Positions 10,476 through 32,307 of a DNA stretch of 64,000 bases are shown in pieces (position 1 is the stretch's first letter; every line of letters begins with the position of its first letter). The DNA is from Sphingorhabdus sp. SMR4y (GTDB lineage Bacteria; Pseudomonadota; Alphaproteobacteria; Sphingomonadales; Sphingomonadaceae): assembly GCF_002218195.1 (NCBI RefSeq), contig NZ_CP022336.1, positions 3,033,001-3,097,000 of the forward strand, in the 5' to 3' direction. The position numbers were made by a program, and so were the translations under genes. The notes beneath the pieces were generated by a model. The model saw nothing but the letters and a program-made list of their open reading frames with translations, had not been told where the DNA came from and did not search any database.

Positions 10476-12392
<1,917 letters not shown>

Positions 12393-12400
<8 letters not shown>

Positions 12401-13067: not shown

Positions 13068-13139
13068 GGCGGATTCCTTTTTGATTTTGCAAAGGTTACG
13101 AAGTTTGGGCGGAACGAGGCAAGTTGGAACTATGCATTG

Positions 13140-13164
13140 GGTATAATATTATGCTAATTATACC
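13140..13164. promoter_or_regulatory. Candidate LysR operator between ligK and lysR
   Basis: Perfect 8-bp arms GGTATAAT and ATTATACC separated by 9 bp, with an inner TATTAT segment. The size and T-N-A character fit a LysR-type box. It overlaps the possible ATG at 13151, which argues for the later GTG start of lysR. A related half (GTATAATCTTAT) occurs at 14322-14333. Confidence 0.6.
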
Positions 13165-13168
13165 GGAA

Positions 13169-14317: not shown

Positions 14318-14321
14318 ATTC

Positions 14322-14389: not shown

Positions 14390-15211
14390 ATGGATCAACC
14401 CGTCACCCTTATCGGCTATGGTGAAGCCGGACGGACATTTGCGCAAGCCGCGGGCTGGCGGTCAGGCGCGCGTGCGTTCGACGTGCAGGATCTGGACGAT
14501 CTGTTTGCCGAAGACGGGATTAGCGGCTTCCCTACGCTGGCGGAAGCGCTGGCCAACAGCCGATTGGCCATCAGCCTGGTCACGGCTGATCAGGCGCTGG
14601 TTGTTGCGCAGGATGTTGCAAAGACGATCGCGCCGGGGACGCTGTTCTTTGACATGAACAGCGTTGCGCCCGACACCAAGCGCGCTGCCGCGAAATCTAT
14701 CGAGGCCGCTGGTGGTCGCTATGTCGATGTCGCCATCATGTCACCGGTCAATCCGGCCAATATCGCGGTTCCGCTGCTCGTCTCCGGCCTGCATTGCGAA
14801 GCGGGAATGACGGCGCTGGACGCACTCGGATTTACCAATGTCCGGATCGCAGGCGATGATGTCGGTCGCGCGTCAACCATCAAGATGCTGCGTTCGGTCA
14901 TGTATAAAGGGGTCGAGGCGCTGACCGCCGAATGTCTAATGGCCTGCGAAAAGGCAGGCGTGACCGATGAGGTTTTGGACAGCTTTAACAACGACTGGTC
15001 GGCCCAGGCGGATTACCGGCTCGACCGGATGCTGGTTCACGGCACCCGGAGATCCGCTGAAATGGCGGAAGCCGTCAAGACGCTCGAAAGTCTGGGCATC
15101 GAGCCGCTGTTAACGCGTGGAACCGTGACGAGACAGGCCGCGCTTGGTGGCCTCAAGCTCGGGCCTCCACCATCAGGATTGGACGCGAAATTGAAGGCGA
15201 TTGCAAAATGA
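14390..15211 (+). CDS. NAD(P)-dependent dehydrogenase with DUF1932 C-terminus
   Basis: 273 residues, 3-hydroxyisobutyrate-dehydrogenase-like. The N-terminal Rossmann motif is 'LIGYGEAGRTFAQAAG', followed by 'LFFDMNSVAPDTKR' and 'YVDVAIMSPVNPA'. The C-terminal helical part 'GRASTIKMLRSVMYKGVEAL' fits DUF1932. It probably oxidises or reduces a hydroxy- or oxo-acid. Its position directly before ligJ, with ATGA overlap, makes it part of the protocatechuate operon, yet the canonical pathway has no step for it. The start is taken at the ATG at 14390 rather than the TTG at 14381. Confidence 0.85.
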   Translation: MDQPVTLIGYGEAGRTFAQAAGWRSGARAFDVQDLDDLFAEDGISGFPTLAEALANSRLAISLVTADQALVVAQDVAKTIAPGTLFFDMNSVAPDTKRAAAKSIEAAGGRYVDVAIMSPVNPANIAVPLLVSGLHCEAGMTALDALGFTNVRIAGDDVGRASTIKMLRSVMYKGVEALTAECLMACEKAGVTDEVLDSFNNDWSAQADYRLDRMLVHGTRRSAEMAEAVKTLESLGIEPLLTRGTVTRQAALGGLKLGPPPSGLDAKLKAIAK

Positions 15212-16226
15212 CCATGATTATCGACTGTCACGGCCACTATACGGTTCTGCCAAAGGCGCATGACGAATGGCGCGAGGCGCAGAAGGCCGCCTTTGCGGCC
15301 GGCGAGAGCGCGCCGCCCTATCCGGAAATTTCGGATGATGAAATCCGCGAAACGATCGAAGCGAACCAGCTCCGTCTGCTGAAAGAACGCGGCGCGGATA
15401 TGACGATCTTCTCTCCCCGTGCCTCTGCCATGGCGCCGCATGTCGGCGACCAGAGCGTCGCGGTGAAATGGGCGCAGGTCTGCAATGACCTGATTGGACG
15501 GGTGGTCGGGCTCTATCCCGAAACCTTTGCTGGCGTATGCATGCTGCCGCAATCGCCGGAAGCCGATATGACATCGAGTATCGCCGAGCTCGAACGTTGC
15601 GTCGACATGGGCTTTATCGGTTGTAATCTCAATCCCGATCCGGGCGGCGGCAAGTTTGAGCACCCGCCGCTGACCGACAAATATTGGTATCCGTTTTACG
15701 AGAAAATGTGCGAGCTGGACGTCCCCGCCATGATTCACGTGTCGGGGAGTTGCAACCCGGCGATGCACGCCACCGGGGCCTACTATATTGCCGCCGACAC
15801 GATTGCCTTCATGCAATTGATCCAGGGCAATTTGTTCAAGGATTTCCCGTCATTGCGCCTGATCATACCGCATGGCGGCGGCGCGGTGCCCTATCACTGG
15901 GGACGCTATCGCGGTCTTGCCGATATGCTCAAACAACCGGATCTGGCAGGTCACGTGATGAACAATGTCTATTTCGATACCTGTGTCTATCACCAGCCGG
16001 GTATCAATCTGCTGGCCGACGTGATCGAGAACAAGAATATCCTTTTCGGCAGCGAGATGGTCGGCGCGGTGCGCGGAATCGATCCGCAAACCGGTCATTA
16101 TTTTGATGACACCAAACGCTATGTCGATGCGCTCGATCTGACCGATGCGGAGCGCCATGCGATTTTCGAAGGCAATGCGCGGCGGGTCTATCCCCGGCTG
16201 GATGCGCAATTGCAGGAGCGCGGACT

Positions 16227-16230
<4 letters not shown>
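15208..16230 (+). CDS. ligJ: 4-oxalomesaconate hydratase LigJ
   Basis: 340 residues, amidohydrolase-2 fold. 'IIDCHGHYTVLPKAHDEWR' carries the first His pair. 'SPRASAMAPHVGD', 'GCNLNPDPGGG', 'IPHGGGAVPYHWGRYRGL' and 'ILFGSEMVGAVRGID' are characteristic of LigJ. It adds water to 4-oxalomesaconate to give 4-carboxy-4-hydroxy-2-oxoadipate for LigK. It overlaps its neighbours on both sides by ATGA. Confidence 0.95.
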
Positions 16231-17478
<1,248 letters not shown>

Positions 17479-17493: not shown

Positions 17494-18432
17494 ATGAAAA
17501 TCGCACTCGCAGGCGGCGGCGCCTTTGGTGAAAAACATCTGGACGGCTTGAAGAACATCGAGGGCGTGGAAGTCACCGCCCTGGTTGGTCGGCGGCAGGA
17601 GCCGACCCAGGCTATGGCAGACAAATATGGCGTCGGTTTCGCGACCACCAATTATGAGGAAATGCTCCAACGCGACGACGTGGACGCGGTTATCCTCGCA
17701 ACGCCGACGCAGATGCATGCGGCGCAGTCGATCGCGGCCATGGACGCGGGCAAGCATGTCGAGGTGGAAATCCCGCTCGCCGACAGCTGGGCCGACAGCG
17801 AGGCGGTGATGGCAAAGCAGCAAGAGACCGGCCTTGTCTGCATGGTCGGTCACACCCGCCGGTTCAATCCCTCGCACCAATGGGTGCACAATCAGATCGC
17901 GGCGGGCGAATTCAACATCCAGCAGATGGACGTGCAGACCTATTTCTTCCGGCGGCAGAATATCAATGCCAAGGGTGAAGCGCGGTCCTGGACCGATCAT
18001 CTGCTCTGGCATCATGCGGCGCACACCGTTGACCTGTTTGCCTATCAGGCCGGGCCCATTGTCCAGGCCAATGCCGTTCAGGGCCCGATTCATCCCGAAC
18101 TGGGGATCGCGATGGACATGTCGATCCAGTTGAAGGCGGAAAGCGGTGCCATCTGCACCTTGTCCCTGAGCTTCAACAATGACGGACCGCTCGGCACATT
18201 CTTCCGTTATATCGGTGATACCGGCACCTATATCGCTCGCTATGACGATCTGGTGAACGGCAAGGAAGAGCCGATTGATGTGTCAAAGGTCGATGTGTCG
18301 ATGAACGGGATCGAATTGCAGGACCGCGAATTCATTGCCGCCATCCGCGAGGGGCGCGAGCCCAATTCCAGTGTTGCGCAGGTGCTGCCTTGCTACAAGG
18401 TCCTGCATGATCTCGAAAAGCAGTTGGGGTAG
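17494..18432 (+). CDS. ligC: 4-carboxy-2-hydroxymuconate-6-semialdehyde dehydrogenase LigC
   Basis: 312 residues, Gfo/Idh/MocA fold. The NAD(P) motif is 'IALAGGGAFGEKHLDGL'. 'VGHTRRFNPSHQWVHNQI' and 'RSWTDHLLWHHAAHTVDLF' match LigC. It oxidises the hemiacetal form of the LigAB product to 2-pyrone-4,6-dicarboxylate, which LigI then opens. It is 15 bp downstream of ligB in the same operon. Confidence 0.94.
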   Translation: MKIALAGGGAFGEKHLDGLKNIEGVEVTALVGRRQEPTQAMADKYGVGFATTNYEEMLQRDDVDAVILATPTQMHAAQSIAAMDAGKHVEVEIPLADSWADSEAVMAKQQETGLVCMVGHTRRFNPSHQWVHNQIAAGEFNIQQMDVQTYFFRRQNINAKGEARSWTDHLLWHHAAHTVDLFAYQAGPIVQANAVQGPIHPELGIAMDMSIQLKAESGAICTLSLSFNNDGPLGTFFRYIGDTGTYIARYDDLVNGKEEPIDVSKVDVSMNGIELQDREFIAAIREGREPNSSVAQVLPCYKVLHDLEKQLG

Positions 18433-19482: not shown

Positions 19483-20451
19483 TCAGGCCTGAACCACTTT
19501 CTGGTCGATCACGCCGAACGGCGAGGAACCGTCGACGCCGCGACCTTCCATCCGGATGCGGTCGCCAAAGCCCATGAAACCTGTGGTTGCCGGCCCCTTG
19601 TCGCGGATCATCTCGATCGCGCGAAGCTCCGAGATACAGCTGGACCCGACCTCGGCATAGTCCGGATTGGAGACCGTGCCCGATCCGATGACCGTTCCGG
19701 CCACCAGATCGCGGGTCAGGGCGGCGTGGGCCACGAGTTCGTGAAATCCGAAATCCATTGCCGCGCCGTTGGCGGCGCCGAAGCGCTTGCCATTCCAGTC
19801 GATCTCCAGGTCGAGACAGACCCGTCCGTCTTTCCAGCCGTCGCCCAGTTCATCGGGAGTCACCGCAAAGGGTGCCATTGAACAGGCCGGCTTGGCCTGG
19901 ACCCAGCCAAAACCGGTCTTCATCTCGACGGGCGCAATGGCGCGCAGCGACCAGTCGTTGATCTGGACGATCAGCCTGATGTGATCCATGGCCTCGGCGG
20001 CGCTGGTTCCCATCGGGACGAAATCGACGATCACGCCAAATTCGCCCTCGAAATCAATGCCATGCTCGGTGGCGGGAAGGGCGACATCTTCGCCCGGCCC
20101 ATAGAAGCGGTCGGACATGCCCTGATACATCAGCGGGCGATCGCTGTCGATCGGATCCATGCCGAAGGCAACCTGCATCAGATCGCCGTGGGTTGAAAAG
20201 GCCGAGCCGTCGAGCCACTGCCAGCTGCGCGGCATGGGAGCGGCGCATGCATCTGCTGTGGCAGGCTCGCCCTGTCCGGAAGCCAGCTTCTGCCGCGCTT
20301 CGGCGAGAATCGCCTGGCCGGCATCCCAGTCTTCCATCAGCTGCAGCAAATTTGGCAGGCTGTCCCCGATTTTCAGAAAGCGCGTGCCGTCGTCCGAAAC
20401 GACCGCGAGAGCGCCGTCGGGCGTGCCGTCTTTGAGGGTTGCCAGTCTCAT
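19483..20451 (-). CDS. Fumarylacetoacetate hydrolase-family protein
   Basis: 322 residues with an N-terminal FAH domain and the catalytic core 'HGIDFEGEFGVIVDFVPMG', 'QINDWSLRAI', 'GSGTVSNPDY'. The metal-binding Glu-x-Glu in 'FEGEFGVIV' is present. Family members hydrolyse acylpyruvates such as fumarylpyruvate, or hydrate and decarboxylate ring-cleavage products. It is the last gene of the 12-kb minus-strand cluster and overlaps the cupin gene by ATGA. It would suit the final carbon-carbon cleavage of the pathway. Confidence 0.88.
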   Translation of the reverse strand: MRLATLKDGTPDGALAVVSDDGTRFLKIGDSLPNLLQLMEDWDAGQAILAEARQKLASGQGEPATADACAAPMPRSWQWLDGSAFSTHGDLMQVAFGMDPIDSDRPLMYQGMSDRFYGPGEDVALPATEHGIDFEGEFGVIVDFVPMGTSAAEAMDHIRLIVQINDWSLRAIAPVEMKTGFGWVQAKPACSMAPFAVTPDELGDGWKDGRVCLDLEIDWNGKRFGAANGAAMDFGFHELVAHAALTRDLVAGTVIGSGTVSNPDYAEVGSSCISELRAIEMIRDKGPATTGFMGFGDRIRMEGRGVDGSSPFGVIDQKVVQA

Positions 20452-21017
20452 TGTTTCAAACTCTCATCAAATTTTCCGTCGATCAGGATGAAGGCGATCC
20501 GGCAATTTTCACTGCTGCGGTTGGCCCAGCCATGGTTGGTGCCGCGCTGAACGACGATATCGCCAGCGCGCACGGTGGTTTCGCCTTCGTCCATGATGAG
20601 GACCAGCTCGCCTTCGAGCACGATTCCGTAATCGATGGTTTCGGTGCGGTGCATATGGGCATGGCGCGAGCCTTCTCCTTCAAAGGAGGAAGCGTCCGCC
20701 GCCCCGATTTCGGCAAAATGGGCTTTTGCCTGTTCGGGAGTCATTTCCGAGAAGCTGTCGTCATCGGGCGGAATATCGAGAACGCGTATTCTCGTGCCGT
20801 TTGCCGGCGGGGCGAGGATGATCCCTTCTTCCGGAGGTTCTCCCGAAGCGGCGTCAATCGGCGCGGGCGTCGCGCGGGTGTTCCAGACTTCGTGGAACAG
20901 CGGTCCGGTTTCGCCGCCAATTTTCTGGGTGCGCGGCACGCTGCCGTCTTCCTGTATGATCGCCTGACCTTGCGCATTATGGCCGGTAACAACGCGGCGG
21001 ACGGGTCTCTCGCTCAT
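20448..21017 (-). CDS. Cupin-domain protein
   Basis: 189 residues. The single cupin barrel spans about residues 110-180: 'SRHAHMHRTETIDYGIVLEG' supplies the first His/Glu set, and 'GDIVVQRGTNHGWANRS' the last His. The N-terminal ~100 residues are an extension. It could be a metal-dependent isomerase or dioxygenase-like enzyme, or a binding protein. It is not long enough for gentisate dioxygenase, which has two cupins in about 350 residues. It is coupled to the FAH gene. Confidence 0.82.
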   Translation of the reverse strand: MSERPVRRVVTGHNAQGQAIIQEDGSVPRTQKIGGETGPLFHEVWNTRATPAPIDAASGEPPEEGIILAPPANGTRIRVLDIPPDDDSFSEMTPEQAKAHFAEIGAADASSFEGEGSRHAHMHRTETIDYGIVLEGELVLIMDEGETTVRAGDIVVQRGTNHGWANRSSENCRIAFILIDGKFDESLKQ

Positions 21018-21050
21018 AATCTCATTTCCTTCGTTTCAATTGCTTGTCAT

Positions 21051-21737
21051 TCAGAGCTTTGGCGGCGTGAATGCCAGCCCGCGCTCGGTAAGGTCTTGCT
21101 GCGCCCGCGCTTCGGTTTGGAGCGCGGCCCGGGCTGAGGGACGCGCGCTCGCCCGGTCATAATGATCGGCAATGGCGGGGAAGGTCGCCGGATCGAAACC
21201 GGCTCCGGTGATCCGGAACCATATCCAGGCCAGATAGGCGTCGAGGATCGACCAGCGCTCTCCCAGATACCAGGGCTGCTTGCCCAGTTGGGTTGCAATG
21301 GGCTCCAGTTGCAGCTTCAAAACTTCTTCGGCTTTTGCGCGCACATGCGCGGAAGATGCCGGGTCGGAGAGGATCATGCCTGGGATAACGAAACGCGTCA
21401 CCAGGGGGTGCAAGTCAGCCGACATGCGGAACAATGAGGACAGGACGGACGCATCGGCCTGGGGATCACCGGACAGCGGCAACAGCCCTGCTTCGGGATA
21501 TGTCTGCGCCAGATAGAAGAGGATCGCTCCGTTTTGGGTCAGGACGCCTGTTTTGGTTTGCAGCGCCGGCACCTTGCCCGCGGGATTGATCGCCAGATAT
21601 TCCGGCTTGCGATGCTCACCTGCCATGAAAGCGATCAGCCGCGTTTCAAAGGGTTCCCCGATTTCCTCCAGCGCAGTGAGCGTAACCCGCGCGCAGGTTG
21701 ACGGAGCAAAATAGAGAATGGACCTGTCTTCGGTCAT
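21051..21737 (-). CDS. Glutathione S-transferase
   Basis: 228 residues. The thioredoxin-like N-domain starts 'ILYFAPSTCARVTLTALEE' (Ser/Cys at the active-site turn) and has the cis-Pro region 'INPAGKVPALQTKTG' and 'LTQNGAILFYLAQTYPEAG'. The helical C-domain follows. It probably performs glutathione-dependent isomerisation (maleylpyruvate type), ether cleavage (LigE/LigF type) or conjugation; sequence alone cannot choose. Its start overlaps the P450 stop, and the cupin gene lies 33 bp downstream. Confidence 0.88.
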   Translation of the reverse strand: MTEDRSILYFAPSTCARVTLTALEEIGEPFETRLIAFMAGEHRKPEYLAINPAGKVPALQTKTGVLTQNGAILFYLAQTYPEAGLLPLSGDPQADASVLSSLFRMSADLHPLVTRFVIPGMILSDPASSAHVRAKAEEVLKLQLEPIATQLGKQPWYLGERWSILDAYLAWIWFRITGAGFDPATFPAIADHYDRASARPSARAALQTEARAQQDLTERGLAFTPPKL

Positions 21738-22927
21738 GCCGCGGTCATTTCCACCGGCAGCGAAGCCAGTGCATGGAGCGTGTTGTTAAGCCGCCGTTCC
21801 GGTTTTCCGGTCAGGCGAATAGAGGAAACCTGGCGGGCCAGAGCAGTCCCGATCAGTTCGCCTTCGAGACGCGCGACCATTTGGCCAAGGCACTGGTGGA
21901 TACCAAAGCCGAAACCGACATGGCCGCTGACATTGCGGTCTATCCGGAACTGATCGGGATCATCCCATTTGCGCGGGTCGCGATTGGCGGAGGCCAAGAA
22001 CAGCAGAACCTTTGACCCTTCGGGAATATGGATTCCGGCAACTTCGGTATCCTTTGACGCCGTACGAAAGAAGGTCTGCACGGTTGAATCCCACCGCAGA
22101 CTTTCTTCAAAGGCGCGCAGTGCAAGTTTGGGATTTTCACGAAGCTTTTGAAATTCATCCGGATTTTCAGCCAGCGCCAGCGCCATATGGGCGATACCGT
22201 TCACTGTCGTGTCGACGCCGGCGGACAGAAATGATCGTACCAGTCGCTCGGCTTCGTCCGCAGTACACTCGCCGCGATCCGCGGCCTCATACAAGGCCGC
22301 ACCCCAGCCACCGGGCTTCAGATTCTCTCGCTTGCAGACCTCACCCACCCATTCGATCGCCGCTTCCTTGCCAGCATTGCCTTCTTCGAACACACGATTG
22401 CGAGGGCCAAAGGCGTTGAACACGATCGTTGCATAATCGATCAAATGCTCGCGCCCTTCGTCGGGCAGGCCGATCGTGTCGGGAAAGATCATCAGCGGAA
22501 AGGCTTCTGACAGATCAGAGACGGCGTCAAAGCGCCCTTTCGCGGCCAAAGACGCAACCAGTGCATCCGCCTTTTCCTGCCAGAGCGGACGCAGTTCCTT
22601 CAGCGCTTTTATCGAAACAATCTTGTTGACGATGGCCCGCGTCCGATCGTGCAACGGAGGGTCCGCCTCGAGCAGCAGCGACGGCGGACGGAACGGTTCT
22701 TCTTTCGAGAAATCGGCCAGACCAACTCCGCGCGAGGAACAGAATGTTTCATGATCGCGCAGCGCGCTTTGTACTTCATCAAAGCGGGCCATTGCATAGA
22801 CGCCCAAAGATTCCAGCCATAGCACCGGACCGGCATCGCGCAGCGCGGCATGATAGGCATAGGGATCGGCGAGAAACTCTTCGGCGAACGGGTCTATGTC
22901 CATTTTGGTTATTTGATTTGACATCAT
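21734..22927 (-). CDS. Cytochrome P450, CYP199-like
   Basis: 397 residues. The heme loop 'VGFGFGIHQCLGQMVARLEG' has Cys346; the I-helix is 'AGVDTT' (236-241) and the ExxR is Glu275-Arg278. 'TVQTFFRTA' and the heme loop resemble the CYP199 group, soluble enzymes that O-demethylate para-substituted benzoates such as 4-methoxybenzoate. No ferredoxin or reductase gene is adjacent, so it must borrow redox partners. It overlaps MFS upstream and GST downstream by 4 bp each. Confidence 0.88.
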   Translation of the reverse strand: MMSNQITKMDIDPFAEEFLADPYAYHAALRDAGPVLWLESLGVYAMARFDEVQSALRDHETFCSSRGVGLADFSKEEPFRPPSLLLEADPPLHDRTRAIVNKIVSIKALKELRPLWQEKADALVASLAAKGRFDAVSDLSEAFPLMIFPDTIGLPDEGREHLIDYATIVFNAFGPRNRVFEEGNAGKEAAIEWVGEVCKRENLKPGGWGAALYEAADRGECTADEAERLVRSFLSAGVDTTVNGIAHMALALAENPDEFQKLRENPKLALRAFEESLRWDSTVQTFFRTASKDTEVAGIHIPEGSKVLLFLASANRDPRKWDDPDQFRIDRNVSGHVGFGFGIHQCLGQMVARLEGELIGTALARQVSSIRLTGKPERRLNNTLHALASLPVEMTAA

Positions 22928-24120
22928 GTTGTTGCCTCAAAGGTTGGTTTACGCGCAAACAGCAGTGCAGCGATGGCGGCAATTGCGATGAGCCCCGCAT
23001 AGACGGTCAGTGCCTTTGCGAGCCCGCCTGTTGCCTGCATAGCCGAGGTGGCGACGATCGGGGCGAGAAACTGCCCCAGGAAAAATGCGCCTGTCCACAT
23101 TCCGGTGCCCCGGCCCCGCATTTCGGCGGGTAGACGGCGCATGGTCCAGGTCAGCATATTGGGCAACAGGATCCCGCTGCCGATACAAGCCAGAATTGCG
23201 AAGGCTGCAATTATTGTCAGGACTGACGATAGTCCTATGCCGATGTAACCGATGGCTGCGACGGCCAGACCCAGCGCCAGCAGCATCGGGCCCGCCTTGC
23301 TTTTCAGCCTGTCAAACACGAATGTTCCCAGACCCACACCCAAATTGGTTCCGGCACCGATCAATCCGATGATACCGGGCGAGACAGCACCAGACAGTTC
23401 CAGGATCGGTCCCAGTTGCACGATTATGGTATAGAAGACTATTCCCACGCCCAATGTTGTGACAACCAGCGGGAGAATGACGCCATAGGGAAAGCCGGTC
23501 TTCGTGGGCCCGGCTTCATTCGGCTTCACCTCCGGTTCGAACAGGATCGCGGCTGCGGCGAGCGCGATCGGTATGGCGACAAGGTACAGCAGAAACGGTC
23601 CGCGCGAGCCGAACAGTTCACCAAGCCCGCCGCCGATGGCGATCAGCGCGATGGCGGCGATGCTGCCCACGGCAACCTGCAGCGCAATCCACTTCTCGCG
23701 CCGCTCACCGACGAAATAATCGCCGATGAGAGCGGTCGCGACCGTCATGATGATGGCTTCGACAATACCGAGAGCAACCCGCGCACCGATAATCTGGAAA
23801 AGATCGTCGAGAAACCAAGGGATGATACCGAATGCGGCATAAAGCAGCAGCGCTGTCACCAGCAAATTCTTTCGGCCCAGCCGGTCGGACAGCCAGCCCG
23901 CCACCGGTGAAAAAAGCGCCACGCAAAGAGCGGGAATGGTGAGCGCCATCGGCACCAGGAATTCGCTGCCGGTGACGGGTGCGAATTCGCGCATGAGCAA
24001 GGGCAAGACCGGCACGAGCGATATGATCGCCATGATCGGCATGACCGACGCAGCCAATATGATGATGCCCTGTCGCGTGCCGGCCTGAGGCGCAATATTA
24101 TCAACACCTGTTTCGGTCAT
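22924..24120 (-). CDS. Major facilitator superfamily transporter
   Basis: 398 residues with about 12 hydrophobic segments. The loop 2-3 signature is 'AGWLSDRLGRKNLLV'. In the second half 'GLGTFVFDRLKSKAG' is the counterpart. Located at the inner membrane, it probably imports the aromatic substrate after TonB-dependent outer-membrane uptake, or exports a product. It starts 54 bp after the DUF2218 gene, the largest gap in the cluster apart from the ends, so an internal promoter is possible. Confidence 0.87.
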   Translation of the reverse strand: MTETGVDNIAPQAGTRQGIIILAASVMPIMAIISLVPVLPLLMREFAPVTGSEFLVPMALTIPALCVALFSPVAGWLSDRLGRKNLLVTALLLYAAFGIIPWFLDDLFQIIGARVALGIVEAIIMTVATALIGDYFVGERREKWIALQVAVGSIAAIALIAIGGGLGELFGSRGPFLLYLVAIPIALAAAAILFEPEVKPNEAGPTKTGFPYGVILPLVVTTLGVGIVFYTIIVQLGPILELSGAVSPGIIGLIGAGTNLGVGLGTFVFDRLKSKAGPMLLALGLAVAAIGYIGIGLSSVLTIIAAFAILACIGSGILLPNMLTWTMRRLPAEMRGRGTGMWTGAFFLGQFLAPIVATSAMQATGGLAKALTVYAGLIAIAAIAALLFARKPTFEATT

Positions 24121-24174
24121 GCTTGCGTCCCCTCCTAAGTTCGCGGCCCACTTTTGTCAGGTCCGTTATATGTT

Positions 24175-24495
24175 TTAGCTATCCCGCCATTCATTAGCCA
24201 GCGGCGCTTCGCGCAAGGCGAAACGATCAGCATGCCGTTCCAAAGCAGTCTTCAATCTATCCCGCTGTTCCTTCGCCGTTGGCTCGATATGGCAACGCAC
24301 GCCACCATTGGTCGGCTGCACAGTTACAAGCGTATCGTCGGGCCGGTCCGCGCCACACGCATCTTTCGGAAAAGAGATGCGAAACGCCTTGCCCTCGTCT
24401 GCTACGGAAAGATTATGAGGCCAATGTCTACCGAGCTGTTTAGCAGGTTTTCCTGCATTGTTGATCGGGACGAAGGATCCGGCAGTAAATGTCAC
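24175..24495 (-). CDS. DUF2218-family protein
   Basis: 106 residues. 'AKQLGRHWPHNLSVADEGKA' and 'RLKTALERHADRFALRE' fit the DUF2218 pattern, a small alpha/beta domain often linked to siderophore-interacting or iron-related genes. It starts with GTG overlapping the hydrolase stop (GTGA). Its role here is unknown; an iron-handling function for the non-heme dioxygenase would be speculative. Confidence 0.72.
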   Translation of the reverse strand: MTFTAGSFVPINNAGKPAKQLGRHWPHNLSVADEGKAFRISFPKDACGADRPDDTLVTVQPTNGGVRCHIEPTAKEQRDRLKTALERHADRFALREAPLANEWRDS

Positions 24496-25649
24496 CCGGC
24501 AATCCCGCCCAAAGTTTCGGCAAACCAGTCGGACATCAGATCCCGGCCATAGGCCATGTTGTCGGCTCCGACATGCTCGACTCCGCCCTCGCGTGCGGTG
24601 AAGATCACCTTTTCGCGACGGGGTGAGTTGACGAGCTGGTCGTAGAGGTCATCGGCATAGCTGACGCTGATCTGGCGGTCATTGGCACCATGGGTGACCA
24701 GGAACGGTACCTTGATCCTGTCCATGTGGCCATTGAGGTTCATATCCGCCGATTTCTCGAGGAAATCTTCCTGGCCGTCGGCGCCAAACGCCCAGTGTAC
24801 ATGCGCCCAGTAATGGGGAACGGGGTTTTCCCCTTCGCGTTCCATGCGCTTGTCCTGCACTTCGCGCCAATTGTGATTGGCACCCCATACAGCACCGCTG
24901 GCGAAACGCGGTTCATAAGCTACTGCACGCGGCGCAAAATGGCCGCCGAGCGAAATACCGGTCATGCCGAGTTTTGATGCATCGACATTGTCCCGGGTTT
25001 CGAGCCAGTCGACGGCCCTGGAGGCCCAGCTTTCGCTATGGGGGTCGACGGGCAGGCCCTGAAGCCGCAAAGCCTCGCCAGAACCCGGCTGGTCAACACA
25101 GAGTGTGGAGATGCCGCGCCGCGCCAGTTCTTCGGGCAGCCGCGTCCAGTAGAGCAGCTCCTTGTTGCTGTCGAGACCGTTGCAGAACACGACGGCAGGC
25201 TTGCGCCCTTCGCCCGGAGCGCGGGTCCAGAGCGCCGGCATGGTTCCCGTTTCGAGCGGAATTTCCACCCGCTCGCGATTGAGTTTGCCAAGTTTGGTCG
25301 AACGATCGAAGGCGTCACGCGCCTTGGCGAATGTTTCGGTGCGGCCCGGATGGCCATGCCCCTGCATCCGTTCCGCCGTGACGAGATATAGAGACGCCCG
25401 TTCCAGCTTGTTCGACGCGGAGAAATTGCGACCCTTTGCTTCGTCCTCAGCCGCGAGTTCGAGCAATTTTTCGCCCATTGCCGCCCATTGTTTCATGAAT
25501 TGCGGCGTGCCCGCATCGGCGCCGCTGTCGGCCGCATCCCTGATCGGCTGGCACATGTCGATGATCTCGCCGATCTGCCCGCCGCTTTCCATGGCGATAG
25601 CGACCGACAGGTTCCAGATATAATTGGGAAAATATTCGAATAACGCCAT
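24492..25649 (-). CDS. Alpha/beta hydrolase (FrsA/DHPON-hydrolase-like)
   Basis: 385 residues. A helical N-terminal half is followed by an alpha/beta-hydrolase domain. The oxyanion region is 'PAVVFCNGLDSNKEL', the nucleophile elbow 'MTGISLGGHFAPR', an Asp lies near 'LVTHGANDRQISVS', and a His in 'GVEHVGADNMAYG'. This resembles 2,6-dihydroxypseudooxynicotine hydrolase and FrsA-type enzymes that cleave C-C bonds. The ATG at 25649 was chosen; upstream codons overlap the dioxygenase gene. Directly after the ring-cleavage enzyme, it is the natural candidate for hydrolysing the cleavage product. Confidence 0.85.
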   Translation of the reverse strand: MALFEYFPNYIWNLSVAIAMESGGQIGEIIDMCQPIRDAADSGADAGTPQFMKQWAAMGEKLLELAAEDEAKGRNFSASNKLERASLYLVTAERMQGHGHPGRTETFAKARDAFDRSTKLGKLNRERVEIPLETGTMPALWTRAPGEGRKPAVVFCNGLDSNKELLYWTRLPEELARRGISTLCVDQPGSGEALRLQGLPVDPHSESWASRAVDWLETRDNVDASKLGMTGISLGGHFAPRAVAYEPRFASGAVWGANHNWREVQDKRMEREGENPVPHYWAHVHWAFGADGQEDFLEKSADMNLNGHMDRIKVPFLVTHGANDRQISVSYADDLYDQLVNSPRREKVIFTAREGGVEHVGADNMAYGRDLMSDWFAETLGGIAG

Positions 25650-25653
25650 CTGG

Positions 25654-26556
25654 TTAAATCTCCGATGCTTGGAACAGGCAGGGGTCGGGTTCGGCTTTGG
25701 GCATAGTCTGAGGACCGCCCGTGCCAACGCCCCACTGGTCCATGATCTGCGGGCCCGGCTCGTGCACCTTGGCCTCGTGCGTTTCGAAATCGACCACGTC
25801 CAACTCGGAAGTATATTCCACGGCAAAGCCGCCCGGCGTGCAGAAATAGCTGAAAGTGTTGTTACCCGCCGTGTGCCGGCCCGGTCCCCAGCGAATATCG
25901 GTGCCGCGCTTGCGCAACCGGCTGGTACCGCGCATCATATCGTCCAGTGTCAGCATGTCATAAGCAACATGGTTCAGGCAGGGCGGTCCGGGAAGCAAGG
26001 CAATCCGGTGATGCGCTCCGTTGCAACGCAGAAAGCACATGAAGTCGCCCAGCCAGTCGCTGATCTTGAAGCCGAGCACTTCGGTGAAGAATTTCACTGC
26101 GGCCTGGTGATCGGGAGAATGCAGCACGATGTGGCTGATCTTGACCGGCATGCCCTCCCAGCGCTCCATGGGACGTGATTCACCGCGAGCGACATCCGAT
26201 GAAATTTCGAACGGCAGGCCATCGGGCGAAAAGAAGCGGAAACCATAGCCACCGCCTGGCGAATCCAGCTCGCGGGGCTCGTGAATGATCTTGCAGCCGG
26301 CATCGCCGATTTTCGCGCGCATGGTGTCGACATCGTCGCGGCTGTCGGCTGCGAGCGCTATCACCTCCACGCAATTGCTCTCGCGCTTGTGGACGCGGAC
26401 AACATGATGCTCATCGTGACCATGGGTTTTGAACCAGGCGACGTCGTCGGAGGCCTCCACTTCGACGAGACCCCAGTCGTCTGCATAGAATTTGCGCTCT
26501 GCGTCAAAGTCTTCGACGCCGTATCCGACATAGCGAATTTCGGTAACTCGGCTCAT
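25654..26556 (-). CDS. Type I (VOC-fold) extradiol dioxygenase
   Basis: 300 residues with two vicinal-oxygen-chelate modules. In the second module the Fe(II) triad can be traced as His in 'ISHIVLHSPDH', His in 'LNHVAYDMLTLDDM' and Glu in 'FAVEYTSELD'. 'GPGRHTAGNNTFSYFCTPGG' carries the active-site His and Tyr of catechol 2,3-dioxygenase-like enzymes. It probably opens a catechol- or hydroquinone-type ring made by the upstream flavin hydroxylase. Confidence 0.88.
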   Translation of the reverse strand: MSRVTEIRYVGYGVEDFDAERKFYADDWGLVEVEASDDVAWFKTHGHDEHHVVRVHKRESNCVEVIALAADSRDDVDTMRAKIGDAGCKIIHEPRELDSPGGGYGFRFFSPDGLPFEISSDVARGESRPMERWEGMPVKISHIVLHSPDHQAAVKFFTEVLGFKISDWLGDFMCFLRCNGAHHRIALLPGPPCLNHVAYDMLTLDDMMRGTSRLRKRGTDIRWGPGRHTAGNNTFSYFCTPGGFAVEYTSELDVVDFETHEAKVHEPGPQIMDQWGVGTGGPQTMPKAEPDPCLFQASEI

Positions 26557-26580
26557 TACTCAGTCCTCAATCTTGATGTA

Positions 26581-27696
26581 TCAAATGGGTTTGGAGACGA
26601 TCGCGAACATCTCGCGGGTGGCTTCCGCATTGTCGACCGGCGGGCCCTTGCCGAGCTGGCCGTGACAGATCGCCAGGGACTTTTCGACGATGAACTTGCA
26701 GCGGTCGAAGCGACGGTCGCGATAAGCCTGAAAAGCGGCTTCCGGTCTGTCATGCGTGGTCAGCTCGTCGGCCAGAACAAGGCTGTCTTCGATTGCCATG
26801 CCGGCGCCCTGGCCGAGATGCGGCGTGGTGGCGTGGACGGCATCACCGAGTAGCACGACCCGGCCCTGATGCCATTGGCCATAGAGCATCATCTGCTCGA
26901 GCGGCCGGTAGACGACGCCTTCGTCATCGGTAATCTCAGCCGCCAGCTTCTGAATTTGTGGCGGTGCGGCGGACAATTTTCCGCGCATGGTCTGGGCCAT
27001 GCCCGTTGTCTCATAGACCGGCTTGTCCGGTTCCGGCGTCGTGACATACATGTACATCAGCTCTTTGCTGATCGGCACCAGACCGATGCCGGTCGGGCCG
27101 TTATAGACATGCAGCGCATTGAGGTCGTCGGGACGCTGGAAATTATAGCGCCAGACCGATTGGCCGGTAAATTCCGGTTTCTCGGCATCCGGCATGATTT
27201 TCCGGCGGGTGTCGGAATAGACTCCGTCTGCGCCGACCACGATGTCAAATTCCTCGGTCTTCCCGTCGGAAAAGCTGACGCGTACCGTGTCGCCCAAATC
27301 GTCTATTGCATCGGCAACAACGCCGAGGCGGATTTCCGCGCCCGATGCCTTGGTCCGGTCCCCCAGAACCCGGTGCAGGGCGGGTCTGCCGATGCCGACA
27401 TTGGCCGGATAATTTTCAGCGAGGCGAGGGGCCGGAATTTCAGCCACTCTGGTGCCGTCGGGCATATGGATGGCGATCGTGTCGAACGGTACACCGGCGC
27501 TCAGATAATCTTCGAGCAGGCCCAGTTCCGACATTGCCCGGATGACATTGGACTGCTGGATGATGCCGACACCGTAGACCGACCAGTCGGGGTCTTTCTC
27601 GATGACCGTGACCCGGTGGCCTTTCTGGCGCAGGGCAATTGCCGCAGTCAGTCCGCCTATGCCGCCGCCGATGACAAGAATATTGAGATCGTTCAT
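26581..27696 (-). CDS. FAD-dependent hydroxylase (salicylate/3-hydroxybenzoate hydroxylase-like)
   Basis: 371 residues, class A flavoprotein. GxGxxG is in 'ILVIGGGIGGLTAAIALRQK', the DG motif in 'DIVVGADGVYSDTRRKI', and the GD motif in 'RVVLLGDAVHATTPHLGQGA'. These enzymes hydroxylate, sometimes with decarboxylation, a phenolic acid using NAD(P)H. It lies 24 bp before the dioxygenase gene and would provide its diphenolic substrate. Confidence 0.9.
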   Translation of the reverse strand: MNDLNILVIGGGIGGLTAAIALRQKGHRVTVIEKDPDWSVYGVGIIQQSNVIRAMSELGLLEDYLSAGVPFDTIAIHMPDGTRVAEIPAPRLAENYPANVGIGRPALHRVLGDRTKASGAEIRLGVVADAIDDLGDTVRVSFSDGKTEEFDIVVGADGVYSDTRRKIMPDAEKPEFTGQSVWRYNFQRPDDLNALHVYNGPTGIGLVPISKELMYMYVTTPEPDKPVYETTGMAQTMRGKLSAAPPQIQKLAAEITDDEGVVYRPLEQMMLYGQWHQGRVVLLGDAVHATTPHLGQGAGMAIEDSLVLADELTTHDRPEAAFQAYRDRRFDRCKFIVEKSLAICHGQLGKGPPVDNAEATREMFAIVSKPI

Positions 27697-27698
27697 GG

Positions 27699-28697
27699 CT
27701 AGAATACATCCATGTCATTGGCGACAACCACGGGACCGTCATAATGGTCAGCGATATCGCGCAGATATTCGAAATGCTTCGGGTCGCCCCGTTCACGACC
27801 AGCGAAGTGGGTCACGATAACAGACTCCACGCCCGCCCTTGCCGCCATCTCGCCAACATCCTTCGGCAAGAGGTGGTGGTTGCGAAGGTGCTGCTCGATT
27901 CCTCTCGCAACGGCCTCCGGAATATTCGGGTTTGCCTGACGGATAGTCATGATGGTGTCGTCAACATCCATCATCTCGGCCACGAGCAAATCTGCGCCAG
28001 CAGCCAGTTCCTCGACCGCTGTGCTTGGGCCCGTATCGCCGGTATAGACAATGGACCGTCCAGGCAAATCGAACCGGAATGCCAGCGACTCAAAACGGCG
28101 GGCTAAATCACTGTTCGCCTCGAAACTGTAGTGCGAATTTTTTCTTACGCTTACTTTCATGCCTGCAATTTCGACGCTGCCAAGGTCGCGCAGTTCGGTA
28201 ACTTCGGTAAGCTCGTTCAAATCGGTCTTGGGCGCTCCGGGCACGCCATAGCCTGCCGTTGCTCCCGGGATCATGGATGCGAGCAAACCCGCAACCAGTT
28301 CCTTGGTGCCCGGGGGACCGTAAATCCGCAGGCGCGGGGGCGAATTCGTCTGGGCGCGCAGGCCGAGGAGCGCCCCGAGCCCGCCTGTATGGTCCCAGTG
28401 CAGATGGCTTAAAAAGACAGCGTCGACTTGCGCTGTGCGGAGGCCGAACTTGGCAAGCTGTCCGGAGGTACCGTCACCGACGTCAACCAGAATGTTCTGC
28501 CCCGCTGCGATGAGAAGGTTGGCCGGCTGCGATCTGGTGGGACTCGCTACCGGACCGGCTACCGTGCCCAGCGTTACCCATTGACCGGCATCGGCGACTT
28601 CTGCGGTTGCCGAAGGCGCTGCCTCTGGCTTCTGAGCGTGGAGAGGGGCGCTGGCAAGCGTGAATGCGCCAGCCAGTGCAATTGCAGATCTAATCAT
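27699..28697 (-). CDS. Secreted MBL-fold hydrolase
   Basis: 332 residues. The Sec signal 'MIRSAIALAGAFTLASAPLHA' ends in AxA-like LHA before Gln. The metal motif 'SHLHWDHTGG' is canonical, followed by 'NSHYSF', 'YTGDTGPS' and 'VTHFAGR'. The layout resembles arylsulfatase/RNase Z-like MBL enzymes. It probably hydrolyses an ester, sulfate or lactone of the substrate in the periplasm before uptake. The ATG at 28697 is the signal-peptide start; a longer frame reaches 28709. Confidence 0.85.
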   Translation of the reverse strand: MIRSAIALAGAFTLASAPLHAQKPEAAPSATAEVADAGQWVTLGTVAGPVASPTRSQPANLLIAAGQNILVDVGDGTSGQLAKFGLRTAQVDAVFLSHLHWDHTGGLGALLGLRAQTNSPPRLRIYGPPGTKELVAGLLASMIPGATAGYGVPGAPKTDLNELTEVTELRDLGSVEIAGMKVSVRKNSHYSFEANSDLARRFESLAFRFDLPGRSIVYTGDTGPSTAVEELAAGADLLVAEMMDVDDTIMTIRQANPNIPEAVARGIEQHLRNHHLLPKDVGEMAARAGVESVIVTHFAGRERGDPKHFEYLRDIADHYDGPVVVANDMDVF

Positions 28698-28709
28698 GAT
28701 TCTCTCCAA

Positions 28710-31235
28710 TCAAAACTCGACCTTGGCCCGCACGCCATACTGGCGACGAGGGTTGTGTTCGCCATAAAACGCACCGGAGCTGCCAACATTGCTGTTTACC
28801 AAATAGCGTTCGTTAAACGCATTGTTGACGAATGCAGAGATCGACCAATTTGCCTCGGTCGGCTCAAGCGTCAGCTGGAAATTGGCGGTAATATAGGCAT
28901 CCGAAACGGTCTGTGGCGTGAAGGACAAGTCGGTCTGCTGCTTACTGCGATAGGATGCATCAGCAAAGAAGGTGAGGTCGAAATCACCCAGTTCGAAGAC
29001 CTGCTCAAGCGCCAGATCAAGCGAAATTTCAGGCGAATAGAGCAGCTCGGTCCCACCACATTCAAAGTTCTGGAAGCCGTTGACGACCCCGACATTCTCA
29101 CATCCGAAGCGCCCGGTTGCAGGGTCTGAGATCAGCGTAAGCTGGTCAAGTGTTGCATCCAGATATTGGAACTTCAAACCAAGTTTGGTGGTCCCGGTTG
29201 GTGCCCATAGCACATCCAGATCGAGCCCCTTGATGGTGGAGTCGCCGTTGGCCGTGCCGAAGTTGGGGGCATCATCGATCGTTGAGAAATAGGTGATTTG
29301 CTGACCCTTATACTCCCAATAGAACGCCTCGACGTTAATCTGGAGCGTGTCGCCCAGGAACCGGTTCTTTGACCCGATCGTGAAGGCATCGATAAATTCA
29401 GGATCAAAGCTCAGGCCACCGCCGGCGCCTACAGCGCTAAGCTCGACCCCGCCTGCGCGGTATCCGCGTTCATAGGTGGCATAGAGAAGACTGTCAGGAG
29501 CCAAATCATATTCAAGACCCACGCGATAGGTCGGCTCTTTCCAGCTGTCGTTGCTAGTCAGCCCCTGCCCGGCACCGCCATCGACGATAAAGCCGGCAGA
29601 GCCGTTGATCAGCGGATAGAAACCATCGTTGATCGTGGAGTTGGGTGGAATGAAACCACCGGCGATGAGCCCGTCCACGTAAGCCTGCGGGTCTGTGGTT
29701 GGCGGCAGCGCTGGATAGTTCTGTGCCTGACAACCCGCAAAGTCAGGGATAGTGAAGGGCGCACCGGGGAATGGCTGTACCTCAAGCGGACAAATCGTCA
29801 GGAAGGTGAAATCATCACCTCTGACATATTTGCTGTCCTCGGTGTAACGGCCGCCAACGCTGATGCGGAACTCGTCCGTCACATCGAAGGTGAGCTGTGC
29901 AAATGCAGCCCAGGAGTCGCCGCCATTGGTCCAGTTCTGGATTGGCGCTACTGCCACCTGGTAGAAGTTAGCTGCAAAATCGACCTCTTCCTCGAAGTAG
30001 AACAGGCCAAATACGCCGTTGACGGGCCCGTCGAGATCGGTCGCGAAGCGCGCTTCGATAGAAAACTGGTCGCCGCTTTCCTGCGTCGGGGCGGGGGCGA
30101 AGCCCGGCCCAACAAAGGCGTAGTCCTGAGAATATTCCCGATATGCCGGAATGATCGTAATCGTACCGGCATCAAGCTCGAAATTGATCTCGGCATTTAC
30201 ACCGGTGTAGGAAAGATCCTGAAAAACGTCTTCGGTTCTGATTGGCGGTAGCAGCGCAAACGATGGACCCTGAAAGGTGTTCACCCGGAACGCATTGGAG
30301 GCCGCGCTCGTTGAGCCGCTGTCGATGTCGACACCCGTGGGCGTGAAATCGGTCTGCGAGCCCGGCGTGTTGCTAAAGAAGCCCAGCAGCGCGCCCGTAT
30401 TGCCTTTGCCACCAATATCTGTGTGGTCCACTCCAACCCGAAGACTGATACGGTCGGTCGGCTCAACCAGCAACTGCGCCCGCACCGACGTGGCATCGAG
30501 ATCGGATGTACCATCATCGTTGAAACCATCGCGCTGCTGATGGCTGCCGGCGACACGCAGCGCCGCAATATCACCCAGCGGCACGTTCAGAGCGCCCTGA
30601 ATTCCGAATTTGTCGAAATTGCCATATTCGGCCTGGACATATCCCGTTGTATCGCCAAGCTTGGGCGCGTTGGGGATGTAGTTGACCACACCGCCCGTTG
30701 CATTTCGGCCATATAAGGTGCCTTGCGGACCTTTCAGGACCTCGACGCGTGCCATGTCGTAGAAATTGAGCCCGGCAGCGGAGCTCGCGCGGCCCAAATA
30801 AACGCCATCATAGTTCTGCGCGACGCCTGAATCCTGAAGCGGGTTTACGGTCAATGCGCCGACGCCGCGGATGAACAGGCTGGTCAGCGGGCCACCGCCG
30901 GGGTTAACCCCGAGCGAAGGCGAAATTCGACCCAGATCCTTGGCGCTCTCGACATTAAAGCGCGTGAGCTGTTCTGAGGAGATGGCATCGATTGCCACCG
31001 CCGCGTCCTGCAGGCTTTCCTCGCGGCGTTGCGCAGTCACGACGATTACGTCCAGTCCACCGGTCTGCTCTGCTTCACCTGCAGACTGCGAGTCACCACC
31101 CGTTTGCGCTGACTCAGCCGCTGCTGCTATATCTGCGACTTCTTCTGCATAAGCTGGTGTCGCTGCAATCGCGGCGACGCAGGCTACTGACAGTGCAATC
31201 CTTGAAATGGTGGCTTGATTGAAATTACGACGCAT
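28710..31235 (-). CDS. TonB-dependent outer-membrane receptor
   Basis: 841 residues. Signal peptide 'IALSVACVAAIAATPAYA'; a TonB box near 'LDVIVVTAQRREESLQDA'; the plug domain contains 'RVEVLKGPQGTLYGRNATGG'. A beta-barrel follows and ends 'QYGVRAKVEF' with terminal Phe. Sphingomonads use such receptors for aromatic substrates as well as siderophores. The ATG at 31235 follows GGGAGAGGAC. It is first in the 12-kb cluster and divergent from a LysR gene, so it is probably the substrate importer. Confidence 0.93.
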   Translation of the reverse strand: MRRNFNQATISRIALSVACVAAIAATPAYAEEVADIAAAAESAQTGGDSQSAGEAEQTGGLDVIVVTAQRREESLQDAAVAIDAISSEQLTRFNVESAKDLGRISPSLGVNPGGGPLTSLFIRGVGALTVNPLQDSGVAQNYDGVYLGRASSAAGLNFYDMARVEVLKGPQGTLYGRNATGGVVNYIPNAPKLGDTTGYVQAEYGNFDKFGIQGALNVPLGDIAALRVAGSHQQRDGFNDDGTSDLDATSVRAQLLVEPTDRISLRVGVDHTDIGGKGNTGALLGFFSNTPGSQTDFTPTGVDIDSGSTSAASNAFRVNTFQGPSFALLPPIRTEDVFQDLSYTGVNAEINFELDAGTITIIPAYREYSQDYAFVGPGFAPAPTQESGDQFSIEARFATDLDGPVNGVFGLFYFEEEVDFAANFYQVAVAPIQNWTNGGDSWAAFAQLTFDVTDEFRISVGGRYTEDSKYVRGDDFTFLTICPLEVQPFPGAPFTIPDFAGCQAQNYPALPPTTDPQAYVDGLIAGGFIPPNSTINDGFYPLINGSAGFIVDGGAGQGLTSNDSWKEPTYRVGLEYDLAPDSLLYATYERGYRAGGVELSAVGAGGGLSFDPEFIDAFTIGSKNRFLGDTLQINVEAFYWEYKGQQITYFSTIDDAPNFGTANGDSTIKGLDLDVLWAPTGTTKLGLKFQYLDATLDQLTLISDPATGRFGCENVGVVNGFQNFECGGTELLYSPEISLDLALEQVFELGDFDLTFFADASYRSKQQTDLSFTPQTVSDAYITANFQLTLEPTEANWSISAFVNNAFNERYLVNSNVGSSGAFYGEHNPRRQYGVRAKVEF

Positions 31236-31407: not shown

Positions 31408-32307
31408 ATGCGGCTGGACAATTTCGATCTCAATTTGCTCGTGGCTTTCGACATCCTGCTACAGGAAAAAAATGTCACCAAGGCAGCAGCCAGAGCGCAT
31501 GTGACGCAAGCAGCAATGAGCGCACAACTGAAGCGCCTTCGGGAAGCTTTTCAGGACGAGATACTGGCGCAACAGGGCAAGAAAATGGTGCCGACTCCCT
31601 ATGCGCTGGCGATGCATCCCGAGATTACCGAAACCATCGCGGCGCTGCGCTCCCTTATCGCACGCAAAGGCAGATTTGATCCGACAACGTCCGAGCGCGA
31701 GTTCAAGATCGCTGCCTCGGATTATATAACGACCGTGTTGCTGGTCCCCCTGCTGGGTGCAATCGCAAAAATTGCTCCCTTCGTGAAACTGAATATTTCC
31801 CTGCCCTATACCAATACCAACAAATCGATGGCCGACGGCGAGCTCGACATGTTCCTCGGTCCCGAATCCTTCGCGCACCCCGACCATCCGTGTGAACTGA
31901 TATTCGAAGAGCGGCACGTCCTTGTGGGCTGGTCGGGAAATCCTCACATGGAAGGAACAATGTCCGCCAAGCGCCTGGCCGCGCTCGGCCACGTGGGAGT
32001 CACAATCTCAGGCAGCGACACGTTCATTGATGCATGGATGCGCGAGACCGGTATCGAGCGCCGGATAGAGGTGCGCGCGCCCTCCTTTCTGCAGGCCCCC
32101 TTTCTGGTGCTGGAAACCAATCGTGTCTGCATCATGCACGAGCGACTGGCCCAGTCGCTGGCCGGGCGCCTCCCTCTGAGCATCGCGGAACTGCCCTTTG
32201 ATGTCCCGCCCATGCGCGAGATGCTGCAGTTTCATGCAACACGGGACAAGGATCCCGGCCTCACCTGGCTGCGGGAGCAGATCAAGACTCTGGCGTCGCT
32301 CAGCTAG
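31408..32307 (+). CDS. LysR-family regulator (NodD/NahR-like)
   Basis: 299 residues. The HTH is 'NVTKAAARAHVTQAAMSAQL' with start 'MRLDNFDLNLLVAFDILLQE', typical of the NodD/NahR branch. The effector domain has 'ISLPYTNTNKSMADGELDMF'. It is divergent from the TonB-receptor cluster and probably activates it in response to an aromatic inducer; the intergenic dyad would be its site. Confidence 0.9.
   Translation: MRLDNFDLNLLVAFDILLQEKNVTKAAARAHVTQAAMSAQLKRLREAFQDEILAQQGKKMVPTPYALAMHPEITETIAALRSLIARKGRFDPTTSEREFKIAASDYITTVLLVPLLGAIAKIAPFVKLNISLPYTNTNKSMADGELDMFLGPESFAHPDHPCELIFEERHVLVGWSGNPHMEGTMSAKRLAALGHVGVTISGSDTFIDAWMRETGIERRIEVRAPSFLQAPFLVLETNRVCIMHERLAQSLAGRLPLSIAELPFDVPPMREMLQFHATRDKDPGLTWLREQIKTLASLS

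Follow-up and report, generated by a model that had tools for sequence, protein, structure and literature searches.

A sphingomonad gene cluster with a probable role in oxidative catabolism of the flavonoid A-ring

The window analysed here is a 64,000-nucleotide stretch of the genome of Sphingorhabdus sp. SMR4y (NZ_CP022336.1, positions 3,033,001 to 3,097,000; the host genome is a single 3.48 Mb contig). It contains a contiguous run of eleven minus-strand genes at 19483-31235 which is probably a cluster for the oxidative catabolism of the A-ring of flavonoids. This reading is favoured because the FAD monooxygenase (FMO), the alpha/beta-fold C-C hydrolase (ABH), the cupin, the fumarylacetoacetate hydrolase (FAH)-family enzyme and the divergent LysR regulator match those of fde-type (naringenin) and ifc-type (isoflavone) clusters of other bacteria. 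Flavonoids are the most likely substrate class and a well-supported one; as to the detail, 4'-O-methylation of a flavone and conjugation to sulfate are best guesses.

The two model systems are known here through published passages. In Herbaspirillum seropedicae, FdeE and the Rieske protein FdeD hydroxylate naringenin at C8 and the LysR regulator FdeR adjoins fdeA; a divergent LysR gene, an FAD monooxygenase (FdeE), opening of the A-ring and a proposed exit through protocatechuate are the likenesses between the fde operon of strain SmR1 and the window (PMC10799723, PMC8552027, PMC11303751). The ifc cluster of Variovorax V35, described as inducible as one cluster, uses the FMO IfcA for 8-hydroxylation of isoflavones and next the VOC protein IfcB, whilst the cupins IfcD1/D2 act on 2-hydroxy-5-(4-hydroxyphenyl)-4H-pyran-4-one, a step order based on knock-outs and enzyme work in Variovorax (PMC11069340). 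The same passages place in that cluster an ABH resembling 2,6-dihydroxypseudooxynicotine (DHPON) hydrolase, and list Sphingopyxis amongst the holders of IfcA homologues (PMC11069340). An FAD monooxygenase, a VOC protein, a DHPON-hydrolase-like ABH and a cupin are thus common to the ifc cluster and the window, as A-ring hydroxylation followed by cleavage would also be.

For the comparisons made here, clusters were assigned to the fde or ifc type on the strength of gene content and identity, without recourse to sequences of the reference strains SmR1 and V35. Plasmids of Burkholderia anthina and Diaphorobacter carry LysR, ABH, VOC, Rieske, FMO, major facilitator superfamily (MFS), cyclase, cupin, FAH and epimerase genes; these clusters were labelled fde-type because genes three to five of B. 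anthina (VOC, Rieske and FMO) appear to fit FdeC, FdeD and FdeE. The ifc-type gene set lies on plasmids of several Bradyrhizobium, many of soybean-nodule origin, and P. hospita has two clusters, one fde-type and the other nearer to ifc-type (its FMO is 43% identical to that of Bradyrhizobium elkanii and 33-40% to fde-type FMOs). Identities between the types, 31-40% for the FMO and 59-69% for the VOC protein, bracket the values of 36.3% and 65.8% given in the published passages for fde versus ifc (PMC11069340).

Measured against the two fde-type clusters, the window proteins are 52-53% identical for the ABH, 53-55% for the FAH, 45-50% for the cupin, 36-40% for the FMO and 34-37% for LysR. Across the fde-type FMOs the window FMO is 35-41% identical, and to the ifc-type FMO of B. 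elkanii 37%. The cupin resembles the IfcD kind, with 42-48% identity to four cupins of fde-type, ifc-type or legume-root Variovorax loci (the V35 cupins were not among the comparators). The best solved relative of the ABH is the DHPON hydrolase, 2jbw; the serine of its GxSxGG motif aligns with those of 2jbw and the Ayg1-like 8qd7, overall similarity being weak (52-60 bits). Both are C-C bond hydrolases of the same kind as the ABH but differ in physiological substrate. In a tree of 66 FMO rows, thinned at 80% identity and with one support measure, the window FMO belongs to a clade (SH-aLRT 99) whose 25 rows are sphingomonads and one Haliea metagenome-assembled genome (MAG); its sister clade is formed by Pseudomonas and other gammaproteobacteria (96); the beta-type FMOs lie apart, and the ifc-type row is on a very long branch, making its placement unsure.

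The ifc-type FMO itself is 99-100% identical in six Bradyrhizobium plasmid records from several species and 80-94% identical in ten more, and on B. elkanii pUSDA76 (L188), typed as conjugative, it lies between transposases. No ifc-type FMO was found at E <= 1e-20 on two Variovorax plasmids that have matching cupin and FAH genes. A plasmid of Roseomonas mucosa, a human isolate (L052), carries ABH, VOC and FMO genes of the fde kind.

That the cluster is one functional unit is supported by conserved gene order. The VOC gene has relatives in 45 of 396 genomes of the same order (E <= 1e-60), six of which have only a 47-49% identical relative, and in ten of 398 genomes sampled across the phylum (E <= 1e-45). 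The 45 loci compared comprise 40 genome stretches and five plasmids; the 40 were drawn from 48 VOC places outside the window's own genome by leaving out an apparent duplicate of the Sphingomonas sp. R1 plasmid (G372, of L005), the six at 47-49% identity and one partial match. Counting matches above 50 bits, homologues were present for the ABH at 41 loci, FMO at 39, FAH at 33, TonB receptor at 33, LysR at 31, cupin at 24, a cyclase-family protein at 22, MFS transporter at 14, metallo-beta-lactamase (MBL)-fold hydrolase at 13, an epimerase at 13, glutathione S-transferase (GST) at seven, DUF2218 protein at five and P450 at two; the TonB, LysR and MFS counts may take in paralogues. Since the VOC-FMO-ABH linkage recurs in relatives, the cluster is not a chance assembly, and at one locus (L133) the same twelve genes stand in the same order, LysR-TonB receptor-MBL-FMO-VOC-ABH-DUF2218-MFS-P450-GST-cupin-FAH, followed by pobA and, further along, lig genes (L187). 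Gene-order comparison was a check named in the original prediction, whose eleven contiguous genes were likewise confirmed on the minus strand. Its description of them as mostly overlapping was overstated, overlaps of a few bases occurring at four of the ten junctions (FAH/cupin, GST/P450, P450/MFS and DUF2218/hydrolase) and gaps of at most 54 bp at the rest; its view that they match no known catabolic operon gives way to the homologies with fde- and ifc-type clusters set out above.

The divergent LysR-TonB receptor pair was seen at 18 of 47 other loci examined. When the intergenic regions of the window and these 18 were compared in search of a common LysR operator, the top shared word was A-rich and occurred in eight of the 18, more than in 29 of 30 shuffles, one shuffle reaching nine.

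These families suggest a route, each step of which is derived from homology. The secreted MBL-fold hydrolase would free the 7-hydroxyl of a blocking conjugate, probably sulfate, and the TonB receptor and MFS transporter would import the aglycone. The FMO would hydroxylate the A-ring at C8, adjacent to the 7-hydroxyl, to give a catechol, and the VOC enzyme would open this ring between C8 and C8a in the extradiol manner. Retro-Claisen hydrolysis of C4a-C5 by the ABH would then release oxaloacetate from 5-hydroxyflavonoids and leave an aryl-pyranone, which the cupin would open and decarboxylate; the FAH would cut the resulting beta-diketone, a flavone yielding a 4-substituted benzoate. The P450 would take the 4-methoxy group off the released benzoate, and PobA, encoded elsewhere in the genome, and the neighbouring Lig proteins would complete degradation through protocatechuate 4,5-cleavage. 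Passages on Variovorax give intermediates from m/z 301.0352 to 203.0349, the latter being the pyranone (PMC11069340); by our own arithmetic, this step fits loss of a C4 unit. The route proposed in the original prediction largely stands, in that the protein families suit hydrolysis in the periplasm, import, hydroxylation, extradiol ring opening and hydrolysis of a C-C bond. Demethylation, which it had given as an alternative to hydroxylation before ring opening, is now assigned to the P450 and placed late, on a para-substituted aromatic acid.

The late placing of the P450 follows from its kinship with CYP199A enzymes, which O-demethylate p-methoxybenzoates and in some cases also veratrate. All nine CYP199A4 residues named in published passages (Arg92, Ser95, Leu98, Phe182, Phe185, Arg243, Ser244, Ala248 and Cys358) are matched at an offset of 12, the next best scanned offset matching two; the offset was found by fit, and the alignment end coordinates give 13 in chain numbering. 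With full-length similarity to CYP199A P450s (CYP199A4, PbdA) and the carboxylate-binding and pocket residues of CYP199A4, the enzyme is a probable 4-methoxybenzoate/isovanillate O-demethylase. Because the CYP199A pocket wants a carboxylate, it should act late, on the released B-ring acid and not on the intact substrate. It differs from CYP199A P450s in sitting within a flavonoid-type cluster, with no redox partner amongst the eleven genes. Nine of eleven P450 places outside the window (L133, L134, L176-L181, S. aliaeris L197, L090 and L103) have an FAH gene in the fetched stretch, the exceptions being L181, a short contig, and L176; the places examined do not include four whose P450 is about 45% identical.

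Relatives of the cluster supply a further pointer to flavonoids. On several plasmids the module is embedded among glycosidases, GMC oxidoreductases and proteins of PF19906, the beta subunit of C-glycoside deglycosidases such as CarBC, DgpBC and PurBC. Deglycosidases of this kind act, according to published passages, on the oxidised C-glycosyl flavonoids homoorientin, isovitexin, puerarin and orientin, with mangiferin in the panel. Of 53 sphingomonad loci, 15 have a PF19906 protein near the module. Among the 396 genomes of the order the family is present in 23, all of which also carry the VOC gene (Fisher p 1.9e-25, own genome left out), and 17 of 46 PF19906 places, in 14 genomes, are within 15 kb of it. 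On a Croceicoccus marinus plasmid (L198), the module is split, and between its parts lie genes for a TRAP transporter, glucuronate isomerase, mannonate dehydratase and glycosidases, a gene mix that suggests flavonoid glucuronides or glycosides.

Several observations weigh against flavonoid A-ring catabolism, or at least against its following the known systems closely. The window VOC protein is just 26-32% identical to nine fde- or ifc-type VOC proteins (27% to that of B. elkanii), which are 54-86% identical among themselves, and by this sequence comparison is not orthologous to the FdeC/IfcB type. An FdeD-type Rieske partner is absent from the window and from all 45 related loci, whereas a Rieske gene is present in 76 of the 80 loci brought in by the fde-type ABH (the best 80 of 583 relatives, with no H. 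seropedicae among them). According to the passage reporting it, deletion of the Variovorax counterpart of the ABH left daidzein degradation unaffected (PMC11069340). Within the same best 80, an FMO is present at 77 loci and a VOC gene at 79, but a cupin at only 24 and an FAH at 37, and no cupin or FAH match was found in the fetched stretch of 34 Pseudomonas-titled loci; part of the module can therefore serve other ends, and these counts speak against a single substrate for the whole family. The PF19906 beta subunit is missing from the window and its own genome, so that this evidence comes from relatives, and a common way of life on plant polymers may account for part of the genome-wide association. 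The P450 co-occurs with the VOC gene in only five of 11 genomes, a weak association (p 0.004).

The His, His and Glu residues of the window VOC protein and a further His/Tyr align with those of 1han, which we take to have iron-binding and catalytic roles; its active-site residues are thus conserved. In the Haliea MAG (L097), an FMO of the window type (65% identical) is paired with an fde-type VOC and Rieske, a mix which suggests that the two kinds of VOC protein do equivalent jobs. The window differs from the ifc type also in adding a TonB receptor, an arylsulfatase-like MBL protein, a CYP199A-like P450 and a GST. On its protein families the cluster would work like fde and ifc, departing from them in the type of VOC protein and the lack of a Rieske gene, and is best described as a variant, a third version of the fde/ifc mode of working. 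Many Pseudomonas species, represented by the 34 loci (among L066-L129), have FMO, Rieske and VOC genes as a minimal module, accompanied by LysR and ABH, for which the substrate may differ.

The divergent VOC protein also leaves some room for the same chemistry on another polyketide-type polyphenol, such as a xanthone, anthraquinone, chromone or acylphloroglucinol. The ABH resembles AntI as well as 8qd7, both of which we take to belong to polyketide pathways, and in published passages the CarBC deglycosidase works on oxidised carminic acid, an anthraquinone C-glycoside, which also weighs against the flavonoid reading. Such a substrate nevertheless seems unlikely: with a CYP199A-like P450, PobA and Lig genes close to the module, the product expected is a 4-substituted benzoate, which a flavonoid B-ring yields simply, and the FMO, cupin, FAH and LysR all match flavonoid-type clusters.

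The P450 and the nearby Lig genes could instead belong to a lignin-derived or methoxybenzoate pathway, in which the P450 would supply substrate for protocatechuate cleavage whilst a lignin dimer or another methoxylated phenol would go through the VOC/ABH arm, and the activity of CYP199A enzymes on p-methoxybenzoate, and of some on veratrate, suits this. It is improbable all the same, as a methoxybenzoate route needs none of the VOC, ABH, cupin and FAH enzymes besides LigAB, the sole GST is MaiA/GstA-like, and the P450, tried as the core enzyme, was rejected in view of its rarity near the module (two of 45 loci). A gentisate-type pathway of cupin dioxygenase, glutathione-dependent isomerase and fumarylpyruvate hydrolase with unrelated neighbours, suggested by the adjoining cupin, MaiA-like GST and FAH genes, was rejected and is scarcely credible, since the 189-residue cupin has one Cupin_2 match and IfcD-type kin, with ifc- and fde-type locus cupins among its relatives and no gentisate dioxygenase model among the matches listed, and the GST is present at only seven of 45 loci.

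Within flavonoid A-ring catabolism, the MBL-fold hydrolase bears on the form of the substrate. It has a hydrophobic N-terminus and the motif HLHWDH at residues 98-103, and its residues 38-332 align with 8gyg, deposited as 'Arysulfatase'; RNase Z models match it below cut-off. Family S4 sulfatases lie near RNase Z in the MBL superfamily and have been assayed just on artificial substrate, their in vivo function being unsettled. An RNase-Z-like MBL fold and an HxHxDH motif are common to the window protein and S4 zinc-dependent arylsulfatases (AtsA), the likeness resting on 8gyg and the motif, not on AtsA. With the own genome left out, 18 of 23 genomes with the MBL gene also carry the VOC gene (p 4e-15) and five have it without VOC; 11 of 27 MBL places lie within 15 kb of VOC. 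At two loci (L182 and L184), LysR, TonB receptor and MBL genes stand by themselves on a contig other than that with VOC; the genomes concerned have the module too, as if these genes were a movable uptake and desulfation unit.

Diosmetin is a 4'-O-methyl flavone. In published passages on the flavonoids of the seagrass Zostera noltii, diosmetin 7-sulfate makes up 85-93% at Arcachon, and apigenin 7-sulfate is the main one at Cadiz. The locus could by itself suffice to degrade flavones that are both sulfated and 4'-O-methylated, for instance diosmetin 7-sulfate: a periplasmic arylsulfatase would free the 7-hydroxyl, a dioxygenase not orthologous to the FdeC/IfcB type would open the A-ring and the CYP199A enzyme would demethylate the B-ring acid. 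This more specific proposal is doubtful. The MBL gene and the module are carried together by C. marinus (marine sediment), Novosphingobium pentaromativorans (Ulsan Bay mud) and N. resinovorum (soil), the last of which means that habitat does not separate the MBL carriers. A literature search listed no genes by which the flavonoid sulfates of seagrass are degraded; if true, the proposal would provide such a genetic route, together with a non-orthologous replacement of the key ring-opening enzyme.

The features are collected in Table 1. A Pfam search of ten cluster proteins returned FAH, cupin, GST, P450, MFS, DUF2218, alpha/beta hydrolase, VOC dioxygenase, FAD monooxygenase and MBL hydrolase; the starts of the ABH and the TonB receptor were revised, each to an ATG (at 25649 and 31235). 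The FAH is inferred from its family to act late in C-C cleavage, on a substrate of beta-diketone or acylpyruvate type. The GST gene, probably accessory, is also present at the Halieaceae-type loci L090 and L103. A group of protocatechuate 4,5-cleavage genes adjoins the cluster at 11345-18432 and, like the divergent LysR gene, adds to the original prediction. LigA, LigB, LigK and the 4-oxalomesaconate (OMA) tautomerase all pass curated cut-offs. Plus-strand genes, namely the LigJ-A-B-C run and one for an aldo/keto reductase, meet the cluster tail to tail. At 348365 the host genome encodes a PobA relative (74%). Elsewhere, PobA and/or Lig genes are near the module at L005, L133/L187, L137, L145, L150 and in a Halieaceae MAG (L090).

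Table 1. Genes of the proposed flavonoid cluster and its neighbours, in window coordinates
Feature	Position	Strand	Basis
OMA tautomerase, LigU-type	11345..12400	-	NF033377 above cut-off
LigK, 4-carboxy-4-hydroxy-2-oxoadipate aldolase	12393..13067	-	TIGR02798 above cut-off
LysR regulator, PcaQ/LigR kind	13124..14317	+	TIGR02424 below cut-off
DUF1932 protein	within 11345-18432		named between the PcaQ/LigR-like regulator and the LigJ-like amidohydrolase
Amidohydrolase in LigJ place	15208..16230	+	PF04909 (Pfam only)
LigA and LigB, protocatechuate 4,5-dioxygenase	16227..17478	+	TIGR02792, NF009903 above cut-off
LigC-like dehydrogenase	17494..18432	+	PF01408, PF19858 (Pfam only)
Aldo/keto reductase	18438-19445	+	
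FAH-family hydrolase	19483..20451	-	PF01557, PF18288; best solved relative 3lzk
IfcD-like cupin	20448..21017	-	PF07883; solved relatives 3es1, 8x0u
GST, maleylacetoacetate-isomerase-like, accessory	21051..21737	-	PF02798; TIGR01262 below cut-off
CYP199A-like P450	21734..22927	-	best solved relatives CYP199A2/A4 and PbdA-type entries, E 1e-141 to 1e-132
MFS transporter	22924..24120	-	PF07690
DUF2218 protein	24175..24495	-	PF09981
Alpha/beta C-C hydrolase (ABH), 385 aa	24492..25649	-	best solved relatives 2jbw, 8qd7 (Ayg1-like)
Class I extradiol (VOC) ring-cleavage dioxygenase	25654..26556	-	3b59 full length; active-site residues align with 1han
Group A FAD monooxygenase (FMO), proposed flavonoid A-ring hydroxylase	26581..27696	-	PRK06847 above cut-off
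MBL-fold hydrolase, arylsulfatase-like, probably secreted	27699..28697	-	8gyg, E 2e-86; motif HLHWDH
TonB-dependent receptor	28710..31235	-	34-39% to annotated TonB receptors adjoining the module on three plasmids
LysR-type regulator, divergent (FdeR position)	31408..32307	+	PF00126/PF03466

Two other regions of the window may be mentioned. At 1807-8001, in DNA of lower GC, an rve transposase lies beside a short fragment of an FAH, whose 182 aa match roughly half of the profile, together with an MBL protein related to SoxH (below cut-off) and an FAD monooxygenase of PRK08132 type; the region is possibly what is left of a second catabolic cluster. At 58379-59599, a gene for a SIR2_2-domain protein sits in a 47% GC dip flanked by stretches of 65% GC; it may have been acquired recently and is perhaps a defence gene.

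Flavonoids shape root microbiota and abound in seagrass, and the A-ring breakdown genes that we found described are those of Herbaspirillum and Variovorax; no sphingomonad A-ring flavonoid cluster was found in the open-access literature by title or abstract start. The cluster would give the sphingomonads a testable flavonoid locus, and suggests a substrate class for the solved structure 3b59, so far named by family alone. In the family as a whole, C-deglycosylation, desulfation, ring opening, O-demethylation and protocatechuate cleavage would be tied into one modular route.

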